Part shown: positions 1,302 to 30,680 of the stretch, piece by piece
How the letters are laid out: every line of letters starts with the position of its first letter
Numbering within the stretch: the first letter of the stretch is position 1
Notes under the pieces: generated by a model
What the model saw: only the letters and a program-made list of their open reading frames with translations
Database searches by the model: none
Told to the model about the DNA's origin: nothing
Translations under genes and position numbers: made by a program
Origin: a virus
Strand: one strand, 5' to 3'
DNA length: 41,420 nucleotides
Virus record (IMG/VR): IMGVR_UViG_3300035564_000042
Location: 1 to 41,420 of that record

Positions 1302-2189
1302 ATGAAGAAACTACTTTCAATCCTGATCATCCTCCTGGCCTTCGGGCAGGCCATGGCCTTCCCGCCGAGTCCACCGTCGAGCGGCGGTTCCACCACCGTT
1401 GTCGACGCCCTTACCTCAACCTCCTCGACATCGGCCCTTTCTGCCGGGCAGGGGAAGATTCTGAATGATGGGAAGGCTCCTGCCGCCGTCCATACCTACG
1501 GCCTCGAATCTGCAAAGCCCGCAACTTGTACCGCTGGGCAAGGCACCTACTTTGCAACCAATACAAATGGCGGGACTTTGTATTTCTGCGATTCGACGAA
1601 CCACTGGACGGCTTTTTGGGCACTTGGAGCGGACGGCACATACCAATGGAATGTACTGAATAATACAACCTTCACCCCAACCGCTAGCACATACGGTATG
1701 GCCTTTGTAGGCGGTGTGCCGAAGTTTATCATCAATGGGACGAAGTTTTCTCCAGCTTACTCGGCGGATGGATCTCCGGTGACGGACCCGGCCTCTATTG
1801 CAACGGCGCAGACCCTTACCAACAAAACCTTTACCGGCGAAACCTACCCTACCTACGCCTCCACTGGCACCACCGACCAAGGCACGAAAAACATTAACAT
1901 TGACGGTGCGTCTTATGGTGATTACCTCTATTCACCACTGGCAGGCACAGCGGGAACCTACACGCCGGTCATTACCTCTGCTCCAGGATCGGGGAATGTT
2001 CGGTACATTACTTTGACTCTTGGCGGGGGGACGAACGGGATCACTACTATAACCTGGACGAATGTGGATACTATTGGGGGCACGATGGCTACGGCGGTCA
2101 CGGCTACAAAATTCAGCCATTATGCCTGTAAAATCCCGGCAAGCGGTCATGCTCAATGCGCCGTAATTGGCGAGAATAAGGACTATTGA
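1302..2189 (+). CDS. Signal-peptide-bearing fibre-like protein
   Basis: 295 aa. Residues 1-19 are a Sec signal (MKK, leucine/isoleucine core, QAMA cleavage site). Next comes a low-complexity Pro/Ser/Thr stretch, then TSTSSTSALSAGQGKILND, which resembles the linker found in many phage tail-fibre proteins, and TAQTLTNKTFTG, another fibre-type motif. The rest is Gly/Thr/Ser-rich beta structure with four cysteines. ATG at 1302 preferred over GTG at 1293 because it begins the signal peptide and has GAGAGG upstream; the GTG would overlap the previous stop. A fibre-like protein with an export signal is odd, because tail fibres normally assemble in the cytoplasm. Confidence 0.55.
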   Translation: MKKLLSILIILLAFGQAMAFPPSPPSSGGSTTVVDALTSTSSTSALSAGQGKILNDGKAPAAVHTYGLESAKPATCTAGQGTYFATNTNGGTLYFCDSTNHWTAFWALGADGTYQWNVLNNTTFTPTASTYGMAFVGGVPKFIINGTKFSPAYSADGSPVTDPASIATAQTLTNKTFTGETYPTYASTGTTDQGTKNINIDGASYGDYLYSPLAGTAGTYTPVITSAPGSGNVRYITLTLGGGTNGITTITWTNVDTIGGTMATAVTATKFSHYACKIPASGHAQCAVIGENKDY

Positions 2190-2190
2190 T

Positions 2191-2772
2191 ATGAGACGAT
2201 TTATTATTTCCTTATGCTTTTTGTTGATCGCTACACCTTGCTTCTCGGCAGGTCCGGGGATATTCATGGGGGCAGGCTCAGGGGCGGCGGCTCCCGTATG
2301 TGCTGGTACAAATAGTTGGATAGGGTACGGTGGAGGAAGTACATATTCGGGAACATATAATACTTGGGCAGTTCAAACACAAGTATCTAATTGGAAAACT
2401 CCTGCCGGAGTTTCAAAAGTTTGCTCATTAAAACAAGATGCGAGAGTAGTAAGCGGATCAGGGAATGTACGAATGTCTCTCTACGATACATCCTGGAATC
2501 TAATATGCCAATGCTCAAGTGAAATAGCTGTTACATCAGCAGGTTATTATGAATGTGCATATCCCAACCTAACAGGACCTTGCAACGTATCTCCAGAAAC
2601 AGATTATAAATACGCCGTTACAAAAGATGGGGATACCCAGCTTCATTATGAATCAGAAGCGGCAGGATCTGGATGGATCTATGGTGCTGAGTATACAGGT
2701 GGATTCCCTGCAACTTGGACCACAGAAACAACAACCGCACTCATGGCACATGGGGTAGTAGGGGTTCAATAA
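2191..2772 (+). CDS. Signal-peptide-bearing beta-sandwich-like protein
   Basis: 193 aa. Sec signal at 1-20 (MRR, hydrophobic core, PCFSA). The mature region has six cysteines and a pattern like small jelly-roll or carbohydrate-binding modules (SLYDTSWNLICQC, then YYECAYPNL and WIYGAEYTGGFPATW). ATG at 2191 follows the previous stop by one base and the stop overlaps the next ATG (TAATG), so translation is probably coupled. Base composition in this gene is visibly more AT-rich than in the neighbouring virion genes, which fits separate acquisition. Sugar-binding at the cell surface is a guess from fold impression and the adjacent beta-helix protein. Confidence 0.5.
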   Translation: MRRFIISLCFLLIATPCFSAGPGIFMGAGSGAAAPVCAGTNSWIGYGGGSTYSGTYNTWAVQTQVSNWKTPAGVSKVCSLKQDARVVSGSGNVRMSLYDTSWNLICQCSSEIAVTSAGYYECAYPNLTGPCNVSPETDYKYAVTKDGDTQLHYESEAAGSGWIYGAEYTGGFPATWTTETTTALMAHGVVGVQ

Positions 2773-4439
2773 TGCGTAGAATAGTTTTTCTAATTGTTGT
2801 TTTTCTATCACTTCCTTGCCCATTATGGGCAGCGGGAACAACTCGCTATGTTGACGGGACACTGGCGGCAAGTTGTACGTCGGGTGAGTATTCCATTGCC
2901 AATCGCACCTGCACGGGTTCGGATGGAAACGCCTATAAGACGTTTCAGGCCGGGTTAAATGCGACCCTAACGGCTAGCGATATGCTGTACCTAAGAGCCG
3001 GAAACTATTATGAGGATGAGCTTGTCACAAAGGCGAGCGGATCTTCAGGGACGGTAATCACGATTGCTAAATATCTTTCTGAAACGGTTAATATCTCTAG
3101 GATCACCATAGCCCATAATTACAATACTCTTTCTGGATTGCATGTTGTGACTCTCGGATTAGGCAACACGGCCTATGCGGGAATCGTCATCACCGGAAGC
3201 TATAACACAGTTTCCGGGAACACCATCCATGGCGTCACGCCTATGTACACCACAGCCGGAGCTTACGGGATGACTGTGTCCGGGGCGAGTAATACGATTT
3301 TCGGGAATACCTTCGATGGGGGCCTTTGCTATGCGGGGAAACACACAGGATCGAACGGAAGTGCCACATTGGTGGATTCCACAAAAGCATGGTCAGCCGG
3401 AGAACTCAACGGCACTGCAATCAGAAATTGGGACCAGGACGCGAACTGTCTCAGTGTAACCAATACTGCGGCGACGGAGATCACCTGCCCACTGGCCGGA
3501 GGGGTCACATGGAATACGGGCGACGGATATGTGGTAGGGAATAGCATTTATATTTCGATACTTAACGAGGGAGATTCCAACACTTATTCAGGGAACACTT
3601 TTAAGAGAATCTGTGACTCTGAAAGAATCTTTGATCTCGATAAAAACAACGGACATATCACGGGCAATGAATTTTACAGTATTTATGAGAGTCATTCCAA
3701 TGCTGCTCCACATACAGATTTATTCCAGGTTCAGTCCGCAGGTTCGGGGGGAACGACCTTTCACGGCTGGATTATTGAAAACAACTATGCTCACGACATC
3801 CAAGGTCAAATAGGGATTAATGAGAGTCCGGACAGCGATCAACCGAAGATCCGGAATAATGTCTTTGCAAACATCAACCAGGCGGAAATGCTTGGTGGAG
3901 ATATTTACAACAATACTTATTTCAACTGTGGCGGGAATAATGCATCATCAGATCATAGGATTATAGCGATAGGCGATGGGAATCTTGTTAAGAATAATGT
4001 TTTTATCGCAGCTGTGACAGACGACACCCAAATCACGGGCGTGGGGATTCCTACATCTTGCGTTACCCCCCCAGTTATCCTAAACAATTATTACGGCATG
4101 GTGGACTTCACGGCAAGGAATAGTGCGACTGTGACGGGCGCACCGGTGGTTTGCTCAGGTAGTAAAGAGGACGTTCGGCTAGGAGATACCATGGCGGTCA
4201 ATGGTGGCGATCCGAAGTTCGTCGCCCCTTATACGGACTGCGTGAATAACACATGCAATTTCCATTTACAGTCGAGCAGTCCATTAATTGGGAAGGGTGT
4301 TCAGCTCAATGCTTCATTCACGGTTGATAAGGATGGAGTGACTCGCGGTGCGGCCTGGGACATCGGGGCCTATGAATATGGCGGCTCTACACCTTCTTCC
4401 GCCACCATGTCCGGCGGGTCTTGGACTGGTAGATTTTAA
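2772..4439 (+). CDS. Secreted parallel beta-helix protein (pectate-lyase-like)
   Basis: 555 aa. Residues 1-20 are a Sec signal (MRRIVFLIVVFLSLPCPLWA). From about 35 to 510 the protein shows right-handed beta-helix character: repeated Asn ladders and turns such as NTLSGLHV, NTVSGNTIH, NTIFGNTFDG, GHITGNEFYS and IIENNYAHDI. Near the C-terminus, SSPLIGKG and WDIGAYEY form the signature that closes many PbH1/NosD-type extracellular helix proteins. Such proteins usually bind or cleave acidic polysaccharide, which would suit a depolymerase. The signal peptide argues for export from the infected cell, or for the gene having been taken from a secreted host protein. No catalytic residues can be assigned by eye. 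Confidence 0.7.
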   Translation: MRRIVFLIVVFLSLPCPLWAAGTTRYVDGTLAASCTSGEYSIANRTCTGSDGNAYKTFQAGLNATLTASDMLYLRAGNYYEDELVTKASGSSGTVITIAKYLSETVNISRITIAHNYNTLSGLHVVTLGLGNTAYAGIVITGSYNTVSGNTIHGVTPMYTTAGAYGMTVSGASNTIFGNTFDGGLCYAGKHTGSNGSATLVDSTKAWSAGELNGTAIRNWDQDANCLSVTNTAATEITCPLAGGVTWNTGDGYVVGNSIYISILNEGDSNTYSGNTFKRICDSERIFDLDKNNGHITGNEFYSIYESHSNAAPHTDLFQVQSAGSGGTTFHGWIIENNYAHDIQGQIGINESPDSDQPKIRNNVFANINQAEMLGGDIYNNTYFNCGGNNASSDHRIIAIGDGNLVKNNVFIAAVTDDTQITGVGIPTSCVTPPVILNNYYGMVDFTARNSATVTGAPVVCSGSKEDVRLGDTMAVNGGDPKFVAPYTDCVNNTCNFHLQSSSPLIGKGVQLNASFTVDKDGVTRGAAWDIGAYEYGGSTPSSATMSGGSWTGRF

Positions 4440-19054: not shown

Positions 19055-19765
19055 ATGGGAGCAGACCAGACAGCAAAATACAATGAGGAGGCGGTTGGAT
19101 CAGGGCATCCCACTAAGGCGGATACGGTCAACCGGCTGACTCTCGTCGAGCACAATACCGACGGAACCCATAAGATGTCATCCGCAGTTGCCGGTGATAC
19201 CTTTTACTTCGATGGAACGAAATTAACGCGTATTCCGAAAGGAACTGCCGGGCAATCCTGGAGAATGAAGGCCGATATTACGGGGCCTGAGTGGGCGTCT
19301 GGTGGACTTATCCAGGCCAAACATGCGGCAGTGACCGCTTTGGTTTCAGGATCAACGGTGATGCCGGTCGACGACACCATACCTCAAATTACCGAAGGAA
19401 ACGAGATCATTCCCGCCCTGGCTATAACTCCCCAATCAGCGACAAACATCCTCCTGTTTTTTGTGAACCTTGGCATTGCAAGTGGTATCAGTTCACCTTG
19501 GCTATGGGGGACAGCTCTTTTCAAGACCGGGGTGAGCAATGCCTTGGCCGCAGCGGCGGCGTGTACGATAGGTTATACTCTCGGAGGAGGTGGTTCGTTT
19601 CAATATAGAATGGTAGCCGGAGTGACAACCGAGATCAGTTTCAGTGTTCGTGCCGGGCAAGCGGCCGCAGGAACCGTCTATGTGAACAATGTACCAGGTG
19701 CGACTGGTCGGGTATTCGGCGGCGTGGCTGCATCGACGCTGACGATCATGGAAGTCACGCCATAA
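19055..19765 (+). CDS. Receptor-binding tail fibre/tip protein
   Basis: 236 aa, with an AAAGGAGG ribosome site. Residues 1-80 form a virion-attachment region (NTDGTHKMSSAV is common at phage fibre N-termini). The Gly/Ala-rich C-terminal 100 aa read like a trimeric beta head (FQYRMVAGVTTEISFSVRAG; GATGRVFGGVAASTLTIMEV). It is the last virion gene of the tail block and precedes a promoter-like region, which fits the receptor-binding position in siphoviruses. Confidence 0.65.
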   Translation: MGADQTAKYNEEAVGSGHPTKADTVNRLTLVEHNTDGTHKMSSAVAGDTFYFDGTKLTRIPKGTAGQSWRMKADITGPEWASGGLIQAKHAAVTALVSGSTVMPVDDTIPQITEGNEIIPALAITPQSATNILLFFVNLGIASGISSPWLWGTALFKTGVSNALAAAAACTIGYTLGGGGSFQYRMVAGVTTEISFSVRAGQAAAGTVYVNNVPGATGRVFGGVAASTLTIMEVTP

Positions 19766-19769
19766 TAAG

Positions 19770-19795
19770 GTTATATATTGCCATTTATATATAAC
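19770..19795. promoter_or_regulatory. Operator-like palindrome
   Basis: GTTATATAT (19770-19778) and ATATATAAC (19787-19795) are perfect 9-base inverted arms around an 8-base spacer. The site sits 10 bases upstream of a -35-like box and 46 bases upstream of a gene whose N-terminus is an HTH domain, so autoregulation is a natural guess. It could also form a weak RNA hairpin after the fibre gene. Confidence 0.55.
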
Positions 19796-19805
19796 ATTAT
19801 TTACC

Positions 19806-19832
19806 TTTACAAATCCTTAAAACATCTATACT
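19806..19832 (+). promoter_or_regulatory. Putative sigma70-type promoter, near-leaderless
   Basis: TTTACA (19806-19811) and TATACT (19827-19832) each match the consensus at five of six bases, with a short 15-base spacer. The expected transcription start is about 8 bases on, practically at the ATG at 19841, where no ribosome site is visible. A leaderless message is therefore possible, as for lambda cI from PRM. Confidence 0.5.
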
Positions 19833-19840
19833 GTGCAGCC

Positions 19841-20671
19841 ATGCTAATTTACCGGCTGAACAGAATCAGGATTGAAGAGGAGATGGAAAAGCGGGCGATG
19901 AACTATACCGACCTTGCCCGCCTCCTTGGATGGTCACGCCAACTTGTCAATTATGCCCTCTATCACGGCGGTAAATCATTCGCGCCGAAAATCGCTACAG
20001 TTCTCGGGATTGAAGATCCCAATGAAATTATCACATCAAGAAAAAAAGAAACGCGGCTGAATATTGCGGCCCTGATTTTCATTGCATTTTTCGCTTTTGG
20101 TTGCGGCGGCGCAGGGTCAGAGGACCCCAGCGGCCCGGCACTAAACAACGTCTGCGTCGCCATGGGTGACAGTATTACAAACGGGTATGGCGCCGACGTT
20201 CCGTATGTTGCGACCCTATCGAAGATTCTCAAGAAAGGCGTGATCAACGGCGGTGTCAACGGGGCGCATACGGATGACGGCGCGGGGGCGATCAAGGGAA
20301 TCATCGAACAGTATCACCCTGACTGTATAACAATCTATTACGGCACCAACGATGCAGGGTTTTATGACCTCTGCTGGATTACCGAAAACCTGCGATCGAT
20401 GGTCCGGATGGCCAAAGAAAGCGGGGCGCTGGTCGTGATTGCGACCATTCAGCCGGCCTTCGGTCCATGGGCGTGGCGAAACGAATCAATGCGGCAGGTC
20501 AGCGCGGCGGTACGGGAGATCGCAAAAGGTGAAGGCGTGGCATGTGCCGATCTCGAACGAGCAGTGTGCTGGGATGAATCCTATTTCATTGAAGACGGAC
20601 TCCATCCTAACGACAAGGGGCATCTTGTGATCGCTGAGAAGTTCGGGAGTGCATTGCTCCCGGTGAAATAA
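19841..20671 (+). CDS. HTH - lipoprotein-like signal - SGNH/GDSL hydrolase fusion
   Basis: 276 aa. Residues 20-62 look like an XRE/Cro-type HTH (YTDLARLLGWSRQLVNYAL). Then RKKETR precedes a 15-residue hydrophobic stretch (73-87) and Cys88 followed by GGAGSED, like a lipoprotein signal and lipobox (AFGC) placed inside the chain. Residues 105-276 are an SGNH hydrolase with all blocks: GDSITNG (Ser111), Gly near 137, GTND (Asn170) and DGLHPND (Asp252, His255). It probably removes ester groups from a surface glycan or lipid. No internal ATG/GTG/TTG precedes the signal, and a seven-A run (20041-20047) lies in the linker, so fusion, slippage or a sequencing indel must all be considered. Confidence 0.75.
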   Translation: MLIYRLNRIRIEEEMEKRAMNYTDLARLLGWSRQLVNYALYHGGKSFAPKIATVLGIEDPNEIITSRKKETRLNIAALIFIAFFAFGCGGAGSEDPSGPALNNVCVAMGDSITNGYGADVPYVATLSKILKKGVINGGVNGAHTDDGAGAIKGIIEQYHPDCITIYYGTNDAGFYDLCWITENLRSMVRMAKESGALVVIATIQPAFGPWAWRNESMRQVSAAVREIAKGEGVACADLERAVCWDESYFIEDGLHPNDKGHLVIAEKFGSALLPVK

Positions 20672-20945: not shown

Positions 20946-21217
20946 CGCAGATACCTCTACCGCTGGAACGAGATCCCCTGCCGCCGAACCCATACAAGAC
21001 CGGATCACAGTGTTACCGGATCTATCATCGTCTTCAGAGATATGGCCGGGTCAAGAATATCGAGATCATGCTCGGCCTGGGTGGACCCCGGATAATGAAT
21101 ACCACGGGCCGCTGCTCGTCAATCAGAAAATTCCTCAGAGATTACGGAATCAATCTCAACTGTCAGCCGGTGAACAACGACGGCGTACATGAGTATTTTG
21201 TCGGGGGTCACTCATGA
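20942..21217 (+). CDS. Winged-helix-like DNA-binding phage protein
   Basis: 91 aa. After a Pro-rich start (PLPLERDPLPPNPYKTGSQ) the order is helix (YRIYHRLQRYGRV), helix-turn-helix (NIEIMLGLGG, then TTGRCSSIRKFLRDYGI) and a beta-wing (VNNDGVHEYFVGG). This matches a small phage winged-helix group that resembles NinH-like regulators. It lies directly upstream of the DNA-modification genes and may control them. The fold is inferred from pattern, not proven. AGGAGG precedes the start. Confidence 0.5.
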   Translation: MTQIPLPLERDPLPPNPYKTGSQCYRIYHRLQRYGRVKNIEIMLGLGGPRIMNTTGRCSSIRKFLRDYGINLNCQPVNNDGVHEYFVGGHS

Positions 21218-21270
21218 CCCGCTGTCTCATCGCCGCAATCCTGGCCTATGGGTGGGGGAAATGGAAGTAA
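21214..21270 (+). CDS. Possible 18-aa coupling peptide
   Basis: MTRCLIAAILAYGWGKWK. Its ATG overlaps the preceding stop (ATGA) and its end overlaps the next gene, keeping ribosomes moving. The hydrophobic start resembles the 24-aa peptide at 23628. It may be only a translational-coupling ORF. Confidence 0.25.
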   Translation: MTRCLIAAILAYGWGKWK

Positions 21271-21422
21271 AATTTACGACTATTACCGATAAAGGGTTGT
21301 TGATGAACCTTATCAGAGACATAAACAATGTCCGAAAAACTAATCACCCAAACGCTCAAAAACTGGATGAAATCATGAAACTTTGTGATGAATGCGAAGA
21401 TATGATCAGGAATAACAAATGA
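21261..21422 (+). CDS. Small hypothetical protein
   Basis: 53 aa, helical and charged, with LMNLIRDINNVRKT and DEIMKLCDECEDMI containing a CxxC. ATG at 21261 follows GGGGGAA. Its stop overlaps the start of the 734-aa modification protein (AAATGA), so the two are probably translated together in a fixed ratio. No family recognised; a partner or regulator of the large protein is possible but not shown. Confidence 0.5.
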   Translation: MEVKFTTITDKGLLMNLIRDINNVRKTNHPNAQKLDEIMKLCDECEDMIRNNK

Positions 21423-23623
21423 AATCAGCCCTGCTATTCGACGATATAGAATTTGAAGAATTCTCATATAAGGGAACTTACCGGCCGGTCCTGACCATTG
21501 TTGAAAACAGAAAGGGAGTTCTTGACGTTGATACGGTGAAGGGTTGCACGATGGGGATGGCGGCGTATCCTGGCGGCGGTTGTTATGACGAATGTTATGC
21601 TCAAAAACAAGCGGCACTTTACGGGATAGATTTCAGTATAAGTGTGAGCAGGAAAATAATGGGCAGAGAACACGCCGCAACGCTAAGACGGATAATGAAC
21701 CACTACGAAACGGCATGGTATCGAATCGGGACAGCTGGTGACCCCTGCCATGATTGGGACGGAACGATTGCAGTATGCAACGCTCTTTGGCATACAAAGA
21801 AGATTCCCGTTATTATCACAAAACATTGGATCGCGCTTTCGGATGAACAGATAGAACGGCTAAGATTGCTTAAAGCCGTCGTGAATACCTCGACAAGTGG
21901 TCTTGATACCGACGAAGAAATTAAGCATCGGACGACGCAAATTGAACGTCTAAGATCGGCGGGGGTCAGTAGCATAAACCGTGTCGTTACCTGTAATTTC
22001 GGGCCGTCAGAATGGGGCCAGAAGCGAAAGGAAAAGCAAGAATATTTATTGTCAATCACTCCATATATCGACAATCCTCTCCGGGCAAGAAAATCAAATG
22101 GACACGTCATTAACGGCGACATTATTTTGACAAAAAAACAAAAAGCGGTAGGCGGGGGTAAATTCATTTCTCTACACCGCCCTGGGGTGTACCTTGAAAC
22201 GTGTGATAAATGCCCCGATCAGTGTGGCGTGAATCACCTTGACATTCAATTACAGAAGGAGAGGCGGAAAATGCTTCAAGTCCAAACATCCCTGCTAAGA
22301 CAAAGCGTTGAGTTTTTATATGTGAAGAGTGTTATCGGTTCGGGTTATGAAAAAGACGTGGCGAAACTAGCACTTGAGGATGGTATCGCTCAAAGAGCGG
22401 CAAGAAAAAACATGCAGATTCACTCGGCGATAATCCTTGAGATTAATGGTGAATTTAGTGGATTCATGACCTTTCAAAATAACGATATTTGCAAGGAATT
22501 TTGTTTGCTTCAATCTGTCATAAGGCCGGATTGTTACGACGACGACCTATACCGGGGCATGGTACAGGCTGTAATTGATCAGAATGTGCATGGATATCCA
22601 GCAATCATAACGACCGATCCAAAAAGCAAGTTTGAAACGCCCCGCCTGTTTGAAAGTCTAGGGTTTGTGACCTACCTTAAAATGTCGGGATTTCACTACA
22701 TGGTAAAGGGTGATTTGTCGGCTGTTCGCCATAAGCTGCTCGCACATATCACTATGACAAACGCCTGGGATACCGTTAAGGGTGACTGGTTACGGATCAA
22801 GAGGGAATGGAACGAGCAGATAGAAAAAGCTGGTTCGGCGCGGGGTGTGATAAATCCCCTTTACGCTTCAAGAGATGGATGCTGGCAGGGTACAAACGGA
22901 TTCGCAAACGTCGTTACCGGCCACTCGCACAACGGGAATGCCTCTGTCCTTGATCCAACGGCTTGTGAGGTTATTCTTCGATTCTTCATGCCGAAGGAAG
23001 GGAGAAGGGTTTACAATCCGTTCGGTGGTGGGGTCCAGTTCGGATTTGTAGCCGGATCATACGGTTATGAATATATCGCAAGCGAAATAAGACAGAACCA
23101 ATGCGATGCAAACAACCTGATTTGTCAAGCCCTGATCAGCGCAAAGTGGATAAAAAGCGACAGTTCAACCTATTCACCTGAAGGGATGTTTGATCTCGTT
23201 TTTACCTGCCCCCCTTATTACAAGGTCGAAAAATACGTCGATTATGATGGGTTGTCGCCAGAGGGTGAAATAAACTCTCTAAGCACCTACGAACAATTCA
23301 GGGACGTACTGTTTTCTGGATATATAAAGGCCATTGAGCACCTTAACGACAACTGTTTTTTTGTGGTCATGACGGGTGACAGCCGGGATAAAAATGGGGC
23401 TTATTATTGCTCTGAGGCCGAAACGATAATGTTCCTGAAGGCGCAAGGATTATCAATTTACAACATGATCGTCTACCTTGAATGTGAGTTTACCCGTTTG
23501 GCTCATGCAAAGAAAACCTTAAATATGAGGAAGTTCCCAAAGCGAGAGCAGAAAATCATTGTCGCATACAAGGGCGATATATCAAAAATAAAAGACCTTT
23601 ATCAGCCAGTTGGGAGGCTGTGA
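21419..23623 (+). CDS. Radical-SAM-like / GNAT / DNA methyltransferase triple-domain protein
   Basis: 734 aa. Domain 1 (about 1-280): radical-SAM-like, with Cys43, Cys55 and Cys59 (GGGCYDECYA) as a non-standard Cx11Cx3C cluster, barrel-like VVNTSTSGLDTDEEI, and a second group Cys262, 265, 269 (CDKCPDQC) that could hold another cluster. It recalls the phage Gp37/Gp68 (DUF5131) group. Domain 2 (about 285-432): GNAT fold (AIILEINGEFSGFMTF; PRLFESLGFVTYLKMSGFHY), the fold of phage Mu Mom. Domain 3 (about 440-734): amino-methyltransferase-like, motif I as NPFGGG (533-538) and motif IV as CPPY (597-600). Probably makes a complex base modification on phage DNA to evade restriction. I know of no characterised protein with this architecture. 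Confidence 0.75.
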   Translation: MKSALLFDDIEFEEFSYKGTYRPVLTIVENRKGVLDVDTVKGCTMGMAAYPGGGCYDECYAQKQAALYGIDFSISVSRKIMGREHAATLRRIMNHYETAWYRIGTAGDPCHDWDGTIAVCNALWHTKKIPVIITKHWIALSDEQIERLRLLKAVVNTSTSGLDTDEEIKHRTTQIERLRSAGVSSINRVVTCNFGPSEWGQKRKEKQEYLLSITPYIDNPLRARKSNGHVINGDIILTKKQKAVGGGKFISLHRPGVYLETCDKCPDQCGVNHLDIQLQKERRKMLQVQTSLLRQSVEFLYVKSVIGSGYEKDVAKLALEDGIAQRAARKNMQIHSAIILEINGEFSGFMTFQNNDICKEFCLLQSVIRPDCYDDDLYRGMVQAVIDQNVHGYPAIITTDPKSKFETPRLFESLGFVTYLKMSGFHYMVKGDLSAVRHKLLAHITMTNAWDTVKGDWLRIKREWNEQIEKAGSARGVINPLYASRDGCWQGTNGFANVVTGHSHNGNASVLDPTACEVILRFFMPKEGRRVYNPFGGGVQFGFVAGSYGYEYIASEIRQNQCDANNLICQALISAKWIKSDSSTYSPEGMFDLVFTCPPYYKVEKYVDYDGLSPEGEINSLSTYEQFRDVLFSGYIKAIEHLNDNCFFVVMTGDSRDKNGAYYCSEAETIMFLKAQGLSIYNMIVYLECEFTRLAHAKKTLNMRKFPKREQKIIVAYKGDISKIKDLYQPVGRL

Positions 23624-23627
23624 ACCT

Positions 23628-23702
23628 ATGACCCCCCGTTTCTGGTGCATCAGCGTAATATTGATCCTCCTCGCCATCGACGCCCTGGAAGTGAGGCAAT
23701 GA
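23628..23702 (+). pseudogene. N-terminal fragment of duplicated small membrane gene
   Basis: 24-aa ORF, MTPRFWCISVILILLAIDAL then EVRQ, with its own ribosome site (GGGAGG). The ILLAIDAL part matches LLLAIDAL of the intact gene at 24600, and 15 bases (23673-23687 and 24645-24659) are identical. It ends where dcm begins, overlapping its ATG. Best read as a left-over copy created when dcm was inserted, possibly kept as a coupling peptide. Confidence 0.6.
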
Positions 23703-24607
23703 ATGAACTATCCCTATTCTCAGGTGCAGGCGGCGGACTCCTCGGAACGATGCTCCTCGGATTCAGGCCCATCGGATACGTCGAGTGGGATGACTATTGT
23801 CAGCGGGTGCTTGCCGCCCGAATCCGTGACGGAATCCTGCCCGATGCCCCTATATTCGGCGATATCAAAACATTCATCAGTGACGGGTACGCCGCAAGCT
23901 ATACGGGGCTGGTTGATGTCATTACCGCCGGATTCCCCTGTCAGCCCTTCTCCGTCGCCGGAAAGCAAAGGGGAGCCGATGATGAAAGGAATATGTGGCC
24001 CGCCACGGCAACCGTCATTGGAATTGTCCGCCCCCGATTCGTTTTGCTTGAAAACGTGCCGGGAGTCCGTTCCTATTTGCCCGTGGTTGTCAGAGACTTG
24101 CGCCGACTTGGGTATGAAGTTTCAAGACCCCTCATCCTTGGGGCTGACGATGTCGGGGCGCCGCACAGGAGAAAGCGGGTGTGGATCATGGGCGACGCCG
24201 AACAGCGCGGACTCGGTTGGAAGTCACGGTGGAGGGCAGGGCAGGAGTTTGCGAACGGACATCCACAACTGGAAAAAAGCAATGTGGCCAACTCCCCGCA
24301 GCGGCAAGACGACGGACGAGAACGAGCAAGCTTGGACGGAACGGCAGGAGGCCGGGAAGGTATCGACACCACCGCTGACTTTGGCCGTGAAGATATGGGG
24401 AACTCCGAACGCACACCCGCGGAACGGATCACCAAGGCAAGTGGATCACGGTGTGCAATTAGCGAATCAAGTTGGTGGAACTCTGAACCCGACGTGGGTA
24501 GAGTGGCTAATGGGGTGGCCTCTAGGGTGGACAGACTTAAAGCCATTGGAAATGGGCAGGTTCCGGCAGTGGTGGAAACAGCATGGAGGTTTCTGACAGG
24601 TGAATAA
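23699..24607 (+). CDS. dcm: DNA (cytosine-5) methyltransferase
   Basis: 302 aa with the C5-methyltransferase motifs in order: motif I LSLFSGAGGG, motif IV GFPCQPFS with catalytic Cys81, motif VI ENVPG (Glu118), motif VIII-like GAPHRRKRVW, a short target-recognition region, and motifs IX-X as GRVANGVASRVDRLKAIGNGQVPAVVETAW. Uses SAM to methylate cytosine in a recognition sequence I cannot predict. ATG at 23699 preferred because motif I starts five residues later. It directly follows the triple-domain modification gene, which supports a shared anti-restriction role. A second long frame overlaps it from 23703 to 24596. Confidence 0.9.
   Translation: MNELSLFSGAGGGLLGTMLLGFRPIGYVEWDDYCQRVLAARIRDGILPDAPIFGDIKTFISDGYAASYTGLVDVITAGFPCQPFSVAGKQRGADDERNMWPATATVIGIVRPRFVLLENVPGVRSYLPVVVRDLRRLGYEVSRPLILGADDVGAPHRRKRVWIMGDAEQRGLGWKSRWRAGQEFANGHPQLEKSNVANSPQRQDDGRERASLDGTAGGREGIDTTADFGREDMGNSERTPAERITKASGSRCAISESSWWNSEPDVGRVANGVASRVDRLKAIGNGQVPAVVETAWRFLTGE
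23703..24596 (+). CDS. Overprinted protein in +1 frame over dcm
   Basis: 297-codon open frame shifted by one base from dcm, starting at an ATG 4 bases after the dcm ATG and ending 11 bases before its stop. It is more than an absence of stops: its end reads WPTPRSGKTTDENEQAW, then QLANQVGGTLNPTWVEWLM and GWPLGWTDLKPLEM. I recognise this NPxWVEWLMGxPxGWT block as a recurrent phage/prophage protein signature often annotated as methylase-associated. The Ser/Pro-rich N-terminal half looks less constrained. It may be translated on its own by coupled reinitiation, or it may be a conserved shadow. Not proven to be expressed. Confidence 0.5.
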   Translation: MNYPYSQVQAADSSERCSSDSGPSDTSSGMTIVSGCLPPESVTESCPMPLYSAISKHSSVTGTPQAIRGWLMSLPPDSPVSPSPSPESKGEPMMKGICGPPRQPSLELSAPDSFCLKTCRESVPICPWLSETCADLGMKFQDPSSLGLTMSGRRTGESGCGSWATPNSADSVGSHGGGQGRSLRTDIHNWKKAMWPTPRSGKTTDENEQAWTERQEAGKVSTPPLTLAVKIWGTPNAHPRNGSPRQVDHGVQLANQVGGTLNPTWVEWLMGWPLGWTDLKPLEMGRFRQWWKQHGGF

Positions 24608-28163: not shown

Positions 28164-28406
28164 ATGAAACGCACGCCAAGACCATGGAAAATGGATCGGG
28201 CTATTATTAAGAAGCTGTCCCCCTGTTATTTTGGGACCGCACTCTTAACAAACATTGAAGGTGCGTTGCCGGTTATTATTGTCGCGGAGAATAGCGCCGC
28301 CCTTGATGCTATATGGGAATCGCTTTTCCCGTTGGCGACAATTAACCCCACCCACAGAAAGCAAGTAGCTCTTTTTGACCAAAAAGTTACTAGGGTGGAG
28401 GATTAA
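28164..28406 (+). CDS. Small hypothetical protein
   Basis: 80 aa from ATG 28164, which has GGGGAGGTGAAGGG upstream; a GTG at 28140 would add eight residues. Mixed alpha/beta with LLTNIEGALPVIIVAENSAA. Its stop overlaps the nuclease start (TAATG). No family recognised; coupling suggests a link to the nuclease. Confidence 0.5.
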   Translation: MKRTPRPWKMDRAIIKKLSPCYFGTALLTNIEGALPVIIVAENSAALDAIWESLFPLATINPTHRKQVALFDQKVTRVED

Positions 28407-29017
28407 TGCTGACCTTCTCCCCCGCCGATCATCGGTATGAATTTGATGGGAAGGAAGTTCCCTCAGTCACGAAAATATTGGGCGAATTCATCACCATCGG
28501 CCTCGTCTACATCAGCACTTTCACAGGTGCCCGCATCCTCGCCGAGACGATGGAGGCCGCCCGAGACTTCGGGAAGGCCGCTCACAGCATGATCGCCCTC
28601 GACATCGCCGGGGAGTTGGACGAGGACGCGCTTGATCCGAAGTTGGCCGCCGTCCTTATACAATGGCATCGTCTCTGCTGCATGGTCCGGCCGGAGATCA
28701 TCATGTCGGAAACGCCGCTGTACTGTTCGGCACATGGGTACGCGGGGACGCCTGATATCGTCTGTAAGATCAAGGGCGTTCTTTCCCTTATTGACTGCAA
28801 GACTGGGATGATGGGCATGACCGGACCCCAAACGGCAGGATACGAGATGCCCGTCCGGGAACATCTCAAAACGCGGGCAAGGTTCGATCGGTATGGGCTG
28901 CATCTGCCGAAGGACGGATCGGGTTTCCGGCTGGTCAAGTATGACGACCGGAACGATCTGCAATTCTTTTTGTCAAGACTTTTTCAGTATCGTTACCTTC
29001 AGGGGCGAAAGACATGA
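28406..29017 (+). CDS. PD-(D/E)XK nuclease (RecB-like exonuclease)
   Basis: 203 aa. It begins LTFSPADHRYEFDGKEVPSV, usual for phage RecB-type nucleases that recognise a motif start of T(K)xL. The catalytic core is GTPDIVCKIKGVLSLIDCKT, giving the D-x(n)-(D/E)xK pattern (GTPD, then IDCK), and a downstream Gln/Tyr helix (GPQTAGYEM) completes motif III. Such enzymes resect double-stranded ends to feed a single-strand-annealing protein, here probably the gene at 26901. Metal-dependent, cytoplasmic. Confidence 0.8.
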   Translation: MLTFSPADHRYEFDGKEVPSVTKILGEFITIGLVYISTFTGARILAETMEAARDFGKAAHSMIALDIAGELDEDALDPKLAAVLIQWHRLCCMVRPEIIMSETPLYCSAHGYAGTPDIVCKIKGVLSLIDCKTGMMGMTGPQTAGYEMPVREHLKTRARFDRYGLHLPKDGSGFRLVKYDDRNDLQFFLSRLFQYRYLQGRKT

Positions 29018-29874
29018 AGATCATCCGGGTATTCCCTCGTAAAACAAAAGCGACACCGACCGATGAAAACGTGCGGATTAACTGCGGTCCAGGACTGTGG
29101 GATTTTAACTTTAATGGTGAAATTGATGAGGTTCATATTTCCGTGACATTTTCCGAAGACCTCCACTGCGCTGAATATCTTGCTAAGCAATGGCGGGTTG
29201 TTGCTCCGGTAAAGATCGGCGGCCCTGCGACCGGCGACAAGGGCGGGGAGTTCACGCCGGGGATGTATCTAAAGCCCGGCTATATCATCACTTCGCGGGG
29301 GTGTCTCAATGATTGCTGGTTTTGTGATGCCTGGAGACGAGAAGGACGAATCATCCGAGAGTTGGAAGTTAAGGATGGCTTCAATCTCCTTGATAACAAC
29401 ATTCTCGCCTGTTCACGCGAACATCAAAAGAAGGTTTTTTCAATGCTTGAACGGCAAAAGGAGCGGCCGATGTTGACCGGGGGGCTTGAGGCGGCAAGGT
29501 TCACTGAATACCATGCAGAAGTATTGCAAAGGATAAAACCTGTAACCTACGCCTTTGCCTATGATGAACCATCGGATTGGGGACCGCTTGTCAACGCCGC
29601 CCGGATTTGCCGGGAAGCGGGGCTGATCGGCCCACGGAAAGGCCATACTTGCCGGGCTTACGTTCTTGTAGGATATCCCAAAGACACAATGAAGGCGGCA
29701 GAGGAACGCTTACGGTCGGTGTGTTCTCTCCATATCATGCCGGAGGCGATGCTTTACGACAAAGAAAATCACCGGGAAGCAAATGACGGGTGGGTGCATT
29801 TTCAAAAAGAATGGATTCACCCGGTCATGGTGGGACAGAAGATGAAGCAAACTATTAATGAAAGGAATCCATAA
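29014..29874 (+). CDS. Radical SAM protein (phage type)
   Basis: 286 aa. Canonical radical-SAM cluster CLNDCWFC with Cys97, Cys101 and Cys104. The barrel continues with LDNNILACSREHQKKVFSML, the Gly-rich TGGLEAARF, then VTYAFAYDEPSD and CRAYVLVGYPKDT. N-terminal 90 aa are an added domain ending in FTPGMYLKPGYIIT. I have seen this type in other phages, annotated only as radical SAM. It may act on a base, nucleotide or protein; with the radical-SAM-like domain at 21419 it could belong to the same DNA-modification pathway, but it lies in the recombination block. Confidence 0.8.
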   Translation: MKIIRVFPRKTKATPTDENVRINCGPGLWDFNFNGEIDEVHISVTFSEDLHCAEYLAKQWRVVAPVKIGGPATGDKGGEFTPGMYLKPGYIITSRGCLNDCWFCDAWRREGRIIRELEVKDGFNLLDNNILACSREHQKKVFSMLERQKERPMLTGGLEAARFTEYHAEVLQRIKPVTYAFAYDEPSDWGPLVNAARICREAGLIGPRKGHTCRAYVLVGYPKDTMKAAEERLRSVCSLHIMPEAMLYDKENHREANDGWVHFQKEWIHPVMVGQKMKQTINERNP

Positions 29875-30680
29875 TGGAAAATGAAATAACCGCGATTGTT
29901 AAAAAAGTAAACCCTATCATCGAACAGGCCGGGCGTCTCGTCGTGAAATGCCAGGCCGATCTTGAAACAGCGAAGGACCTTATCAGCAACGTCATAAAGG
30001 CACTGAAAAAGGAGATGGACGACACCTTTGACGGCATAATTGCAAAGGCCCACGCCGCCCACAAAGAGGCCGTCGCACAGAAGAAGCGCCACTATGAACC
30101 CCTGGAGGCGGCGGAACGGCAGATCAAGCAGAAGATGGGCGTCTACCTCGACGAACAGGATCGGCTCAGACGCGAAGAGGAGGCCCGGCAACGGCAGGAG
30201 GCCGAACGGATCCGGGCCGCCGCCATTGCCGCCGCCGACAAGAAGATCGCCGCCCTGATGGAGAAGTCCGGCGACCTCTCCGCGCAGATCACGGCGTTTC
30301 AGGCCGAACTCGATAACCCGGAATTGCCCGACCTTGACCGGGAGCGGATCGGCGCACAGCTCCAGGCGCTCCAGAGAAAATATAACGACCTACAGGGCAA
30401 GGCTGAAGAAAAACAGGCACAAATAGAGACCATCCTGTCAACCCCGGCGCCTTCCCTAGTTGTCAACAATGCGCCGAAAGTGGCGGGGCTGTCCTCCCGT
30501 ACCGAGCTGATCCCGGAGGTTATCAACCCCTTGGCGCTGATCAAGGCGATTGCGGATGGGCGGTATCCGGCCAAGCTGGTCAAGGAATGGAATTACTCCC
30601 TGCTCAAAGATCTGGTCAACAGCGGGATGAACATTCCGGGCGTGGCGTCACAATCGAGAAGGGTGATGGGGGTGAGGTGA
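29874..30680 (+). CDS. Coiled-coil phage protein
   Basis: 268 aa, nearly all helical: two long coiled coils, about 1-125 (HAAHKEAVAQKKRHYEPLEA; DEQDRLRREEEARQRQEA) and 140-200. A compact C-terminal domain reads VINPLALIKAIADGRYPAKL and LLKDLVNSGMNIPGV. The layout matches a widespread phage early protein found next to recombination genes; function not established. TGATG overlap with the next gene. It may bind single-stranded DNA or scaffold the recombination proteins. Confidence 0.55.
   Translation: MENEITAIVKKVNPIIEQAGRLVVKCQADLETAKDLISNVIKALKKEMDDTFDGIIAKAHAAHKEAVAQKKRHYEPLEAAERQIKQKMGVYLDEQDRLRREEEARQRQEAERIRAAAIAAADKKIAALMEKSGDLSAQITAFQAELDNPELPDLDRERIGAQLQALQRKYNDLQGKAEEKQAQIETILSTPAPSLVVNNAPKVAGLSSRTELIPEVINPLALIKAIADGRYPAKLVKEWNYSLLKDLVNSGMNIPGVASQSRRVMGVR

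Follow-up and report, generated by a model that had tools for sequence, protein, structure and literature searches.

An apparently undescribed phage protein family joining radical-SAM-like, GNAT and methyltransferase domains, and its possible role in nucleobase modification

Introduction

The Mom protein of phage Mu, which functions in phage DNA modification, has a GNAT-type fold without a canonical CoA loop and requires neither a radical-SAM (rSAM) nor a methyltransferase (MTase) partner. In the tRNA pathway to which Elp3 belongs, a methyltransferase acts as the step after Elp3. Elp3 itself consists of an rSAM domain and a GNAT domain connected by a three-cysteine linker, which in bacteria and archaea is zinc-binding (PMC6367351). 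It makes carboxymethyl-uridine in tRNA, and the mechanism proposed for it combines a radical with an acetyl group derived from the GNAT domain (PMC6367351). On the DNA side, phages carboxymethylate cytosine via the CmoX/CmoA/CmoY 5-carboxymethylcytosine pathway (PMC12783734). Hypermodification of phage DNA is of a known kind, and the set of rSAM, GNAT and MTase domains described here is not among the described ones that we found.

Results

The fusion gene and its genomic context

The window, that is, the whole 41,420-base virus record that was analyzed, carries terminase, portal, protease and capsid genes, and its terminase, portal and capsid genes identify it as that of a tailed phage. It contains an unbroken frame of 734 residues, from ATG to stop (Table 1), which a sequence-only reading had described as three domains in one chain. 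That description held, as each domain is supported (see below) and the fusion is found as one frame in 49 non-redundant loci; cysteines 43, 55 and 59, cysteines 262, 265 and 269, and the motifs NPFGGG and CPPY are all located in the translation where that reading had put them. The frame is far beyond chance, based on its many relatives, the recurrent fusion, the low level of nonsynonymous change and the invariant cysteines. In the comparison with the closest relative, pS was 0.79 (near saturation) and pN was 0.12 (low), and this was the same in all three domains.

Table 1. Features of the fusion gene, its neighbors and related loci (positions are those of the window unless a locus is named).
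Feature	Position	Strand	Details
Small ORF upstream of fusion gene	21189..21422	+	4-base overlap with start codon
rSAM-GNAT-MTase fusion gene	21419..23623	+	734 aa
Radical-SAM-like (beta-alpha)6 barrel domain, aa 21-270	21479..22228	+	alignment; beta/alpha order of model; register with Radical_SAM family
Predicted 4Fe-4S cysteines C43-x11-C55-x3-C59, after strand 1	21545..21595	+	invariant in 35/35 relatives
Linker cysteines C262-x2-C265-x3-C269, between rSAM and GNAT	22202..22225	+	invariant in 35/35 relatives
GNAT-fold acyltransferase domain, aa 295-433	22301..22717	+	fold match, profile match, alignment
Class I SAM-dependent MTase domain, phage ParB-MTase family, aa 447-734	22757..23620	+	PHROG and fold match
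MTase motif I, NPFGGG, aa 533-538	23015..23032	+	invariant in alignment
MTase motif IV, CPPY, aa 597-600	23207..23218	+	invariant in alignment and in ParB-MTases
C5-cytosine DNA methyltransferase gene, directly downstream of fusion gene	23645..24607	+	PF00145, E 3e-35
PLP-enzyme/MTase loci	L255 1512-4001; L258 1536-3974; L257 1406-2275
Genome-collection relatives			assemblies of Spirochaetes, Smithella, Candidatus Desulfobacula, Desulfobacterales, Massilibacteroides, an unnamed bacterium, Riemerella

Against Pfam and NCBIfam the fusion protein had just two matches, one to N6_N4_Mtase below threshold and the other at the level of chance; PHROGs identified a phage DNA methyltransferase at residues 490-730, and PADLOC gave weak methyltransferase matches only. 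The AlphaFold2 model of the protein has a mean pLDDT of 84, with values >90 across most of residues 30-240.

The small ORF upstream of the fusion gene matched no known family and is probably on the same transcript, judging from the gene arrangement. The C5-cytosine DNA methyltransferase gene downstream is an optional companion, as it was present in 6/82 of the sequences compared. Elsewhere in the window, positions 29014-29874 encode a second radical-SAM protein (CX3CX2C; phrog_9298, E 3e-17) flanked by exonuclease-like genes (28406-29017 and 29874-30680), and positions 19778-20671 encode an odd pairing, in which a protein with a GDSL lipase/esterase domain (E 1e-24) has a helix-turn-helix-like match close to its start. 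The product of 19055-19765, likely in the tail-fiber region, has a sub-threshold match (E 2e-5) to the Chlamydia Pgp3 C-terminal domain.

Relatives are encoded by 168 IMG/VR stretches, many of them full-length with 57-82% identity, and seven were found in the genome collection (Table 1). The bacterial assemblies with relatives are largely those of lineages known as anaerobic (Smithella, Desulfobacterales, Spirochaetes). When the rSAM and GNAT parts were searched by tblastn against named phages there was no match; these phages have the methyltransferase part only, usually fused to ParB. Riemerella columbipharyngis DSM 24015, a culture-collection strain, encodes the same MTase (about 62%) with a different GNAT-like domain (L254, 5683-7323) that has a weak LPG_synthase_C match, and a neighboring gene (1481-4150) encodes an 889-residue protein that appears Cas9-like by eye.

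The N-terminal radical-SAM-like domain

Support for a radical-SAM-like N-terminus, as previously proposed, was strong but indirect. All six cysteines (Cys43, 55, 59, 262, 265, and 269) are invariant in an alignment of 35 relatives, in which the motifs R-x-G-x-x-GDP, TKHW and NTSxS are also found. In the model a strand (E40-42) is positioned just ahead of the cysteine loop and is followed, at high confidence, by a repeating beta-alpha order. The cysteine spacing of the domain is CX11CX3C and not the canonical CX3CX2C; exceptions to the canonical spacing are known in the radical-SAM superfamily, and Elp3 likewise has a long spacing in its Fe-S cysteine motif. In 11 loci the domain is replaced by a partner gene for an rSAM protein with the canonical CX3CX2C, which matches Pfam Radical_SAM (E 4e-10) and, at E 9e-4, a “DNA repair photolyase” PHROG of phages. 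Alignment of the window rSAM domain with the profile of this canonical partner by hhalign gave an E-value of 0.003 in one comparison, at a probability of 11%, and the two profiles were in register through CYA, RxG..TD/GDP, xIxTKxx and the next strand. The swap with a bona fide Radical_SAM gene, taken with the invariant cysteines, the motifs, the beta-alpha order and the profile register, leaves a radical-SAM enzyme as much the most probable interpretation of the domain, and one that we hold with high confidence.

By sequence, the rSAM part had no match among the radical-SAM entries of Pfam or the PDB, and its PDB profile matches, which were short pentatricopeptide-repeat and low-score ones only, were judged to be chance. 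The domain was never listed in the fold search of the whole model, the lists being filled by the GNAT and methyltransferase domains. The linker cysteines C262, C265, and C269 are a candidate auxiliary cluster or zinc site. A canonical rSAM partner (60% identical) is also encoded in the human gut phage MT835521 (L099, 3980-4816), with no GNAT-MT gene nearby.

The GNAT domain

The middle domain is confidently predicted to have a GNAT fold. The predicted model matched 1xeb with a Z of 16.7 (rmsd 1.9 Å over 130 residues), a separate model of the domain gave a Z of 15.7, and GNAT matches overall had Z of 14-17; in the PDB profile search three GNATs were the only matches, the best being 3bln (E 0.005). 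The GNAT assignment of the sequence-only reading is thereby strongly supported, but its description of the domain as “Mom-like” is not. The fusion protein did not match the Mom PHROG, phrog_1384, which Mu Mom itself matches at 7e-84, and when the GNAT profile was compared by hhalign with a profile of 12 Mom members the probability was 0.5%, with the cores in register. Similarly, the invariant residues of Mom (H48, Y49, E98, D139, G146, Y149, and N153) had no clear conserved counterparts in two alignments. A Mom relationship was rejected on these three grounds, and by the tests made the domain is not a member of the Mom family. The fold lists for the domain were of ordinary GNATs, and the absence of Mom from them is no test of Mom kinship.

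The Q/RxxGxG/A acyl-CoA pyrophosphate loop is absent from the GNAT alignment, making the use of acetyl-CoA doubtful. Only a divergent paralog, P0005, has this loop, from which we deduce that the window GNAT has probably lost it. P0005 is a divergent second GNAT copy (32% identical, with weak GNAT-family matches) encoded directly after a GNAT-MT gene (L054, 5209-5871), and the beginning of the same MTase linker comes after it.

The methyltransferase domain and the CPPY motif

The assignment of the C-terminus to a DNA-methyltransferase family is strong, based on its matches to phrog_12517 (E 1e-35) and phrog_498 (E 4e-34) and its class I fold. Its nearest relatives by sequence are phage ParB-MTases, whereas its nearest folds are tRNA m2G enzymes (aTrm11, 5e71, Z 17.4 for the predicted model). 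The fusion protein has no ParB_N match to an N-terminal ParB domain, and the rSAM and GNAT domains are in its place. The cysteine of the CPPY motif had been taken as a sign that the domain may be non-catalytic, which was not borne out: CPPY was present in 10/10 of the named-phage homologs examined, most of them ParB-MTases, and is thus a family motif. We consequently rejected a decayed motif IV, CPPY being the signature of the whole ParB-MTase family, of which we know of no tested member.

Most of the CPPY MTases sampled have ParB only, without recognized extra chemistry adjoining, and evidently are able to work alone; among 80 sampled, SpeD was beside none and a PLP-enzyme gene was beside one. 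A minority of CPPY MTases do have extra chemistry, with an S-adenosylmethionine (SAM) decarboxylase beside two, and a PLP enzyme inside two and adjacent to others. Taken together, these arrangements suggest that the CPPY MTase is a module able to work alone that has on several occasions acquired additional chemistry. The two decarboxylase genes match PF02675 (E 2e-19 and 2e-23, respectively) and each overlaps the end of a CPPY ParB-MTase gene, in Croceibacter P2559S (L082, 4866-5186) and Pseudomonas ZRG1 (L084, 4941-5330), and it is possible that aminopropyl transfer to DNA from decarboxylated SAM occurs there. These SpeD genes prompted the idea that the MTase uses decarboxylated SAM, which we did not adopt as SpeD was absent from 34 records of the rSAM-GNAT-MT family and from the neighborhood of all 80 CPPY MTases. 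A PALP-fold PLP enzyme interrupts the MTase of Pseudanabaena Pam4 and of Erythrobacter ZS04, with motif II on one side of the insertion and CPPY on the other; in Mycobacterium AlanGrant it is a separate gene overlapping the MTase (Table 1).

Partnership of the three activities

Among the sequences retrieved we classified at least 109 non-redundant loci, of which 49 are fused, 19 have a separate rSAM gene just upstream, 26 have one just downstream, 11 have a different, canonical rSAM just downstream and four have none in view. As this set was partly recruited by the rSAM itself, the partnership was recounted on 66 non-redundant loci recruited by the GNAT domain alone. An rSAM partner was present in 64/66 of these, whether fused (39), just upstream (17), just downstream with the same cysteine type (5) or just downstream with the canonical CX3CX2C (3), and two had none in view. 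Where rSAM and GNAT-MT genes are separate they mostly overlap, abut or nearly touch, and the rSAM has been exchanged for another rSAM family while the GNAT-MT was retained. The occurrence of the rSAM, fused or adjacent, in three gene orders and the family swap argue for a shared pathway, and its presence in 64/66 loci suggests that the three activities probably work together. The partnership is strong and not absolute, as no rSAM was detected with the Radical_SAM, window-type or canonical-partner profiles on the 40.8-kb contig of one GNAT-MT gene (L185).

Discussion

We favor, as reasonably probable, a role for the fusion protein as a multi-step nucleobase-modification enzyme of a tailed phage that acts most likely on the phage's own DNA after replication. 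We infer the scheme that follows, from Fe-S cluster, radical chemistry and step order to DNA substrate, product and protection from restriction. The MTase domain would bind SAM, flip out the target base and alkylate either the base itself or a group added to it. With a 4Fe-4S cluster on C43, C55, and C59, the rSAM barrel would generate a 5'-deoxyadenosyl radical by cleaving another SAM and would activate a carbon-hydrogen bond, and the GNAT domain would supply or attach an acyl-type group. If the rSAM-GNAT pair were Elp3-like, the rSAM radical would lead to a carbon radical on a GNAT-bound acetyl group and to its addition to a pyrimidine, with the MTase paralleling the methyltransferase that follows Elp3. 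This specific version, in which one phage polypeptide acylates a DNA base by Elp3-type radical chemistry before methylating the product, is tentative and unlikely; if true, it would be a DNA counterpart of Elongator and its methyltransferase, producing a base not yet known from any virus. That a base modification shields the phage DNA, as had been suggested, is plausible.

DNA is the likelier substrate because the MTase is in the phage ParB-MTase family, the window is that of a tailed phage and a C5 DNA methyltransferase gene adjoins. The main rival, which we consider unlikely, is an enzyme that modifies tRNA or another RNA in an Elp3-like step (cm5U) followed by methylation (mcm5U), aiding translation takeover or protection. 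The order of rSAM, cysteine linker and GNAT is that of the tRNA enzyme Elp3, and the nearest solved MTase folds, the tRNA m2G enzymes aTrm11, TrmN, and Trm14, count against the DNA reading. In addition, conservation is high across unrelated bacterial lineages, and the GNAT-MT part has no hypervariable target-recognition segment, a feature that would be compatible with a fixed RNA target as well. However, the MTase sequence belongs with the ParB-MTases, annotated as DNA methylases, and not with the Trm11 family, and no THUMP or other RNA-binding domain was found in the fusion protein by a Pfam-type search.

It is quite improbable that the MTase carries out plain DNA methylation while the rSAM and GNAT domains serve elsewhere (for example, in modifying a host protein or disarming a defense) and are joined for expression only. 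Most sampled CPPY MTases do manage with ParB, and L185 has a GNAT-MT without rSAM, but the near-constant association of rSAM with GNAT-MT in three gene orders, and the swap of its family, are contrary to such independence. Mom-type chemistry, in which the product of the GNAT would be N6-carbamoylmethyl-adenine or a related adenine adduct and the rSAM and MTase would be helpers, is highly improbable, for the fold, the missing CoA loop and the in-register cores are outweighed by the failure to match phrog_1384, the lack of Mom's invariant residues and the fact that Mu Mom needs neither partner.

The family is apparently undescribed, widespread and conserved; as the earlier reading had supposed, no published description of the architecture was found in the literature searched, although an earlier mention is possible. 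It is common, occurs in bacterial assemblies also, and is available as one expressible protein. Its product is within reach of one mass-spectrometry experiment, and it allows the role of the broad CPPY ParB-MTase family to be tested directly. Should the chemistry be as inferred, one protein would yield a DNA base that is new and a radical enzyme that works on DNA, and would offer a new tool for studies of anti-restriction and for sequencing.

The window protein and Elp3 share the order of rSAM, three-cysteine linker and GNAT in one chain, but the window GNAT has no CoA loop, the chain is extended by an MTase domain, the gene is phage-borne and the rSAM motifs look nearer to those of SPL-type proteins. 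Elp3 profiles gave no Pfam match, no NCBIfam match (E up to 1) and, with the rSAM profile, no PDB Elp3 match (E up to 10). With no sequence match and no CoA loop, the likeness to Elp3 is one of layout and not of membership. The canonical partner of the 11 loci matches Pfam Radical_SAM, phrog_13321 and phrog_9252, the latter two of which we take to represent spore-photoproduct-lyase-like (SplB/COG1533) radical-SAM proteins. Its motifs align with those of the window N-terminal domain, which differs in having CX11CX3C in place of CX3CX2C and the additional C262, C265, and C269. With Mom of Mu there is a GNAT-type fold and a missing CoA loop in common, and neither a profile match nor common invariant residues. 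The CmoX/CmoA/CmoY pathway is, similarly, a route of base hypermodification in phages with a modified MTase at its core, but it uses carboxy-SAM and an ATP-dependent ligase encoded by separate genes, with no rSAM or GNAT (PMC12783734). Lastly, the phage ParB-MTases (Listeria B054 gp77, Enterococcus phiFL3A gp36, phrog_498/phrog_12517) have a homologous MTase domain (about 30% identity, E to 6e-25) in which the order of motifs and the CPPY of motif IV are unchanged and motif I is similar, but those proteins bear an N-terminal ParB and no Fe-S domain, whereas the window protein bears an rSAM and a GNAT domain.
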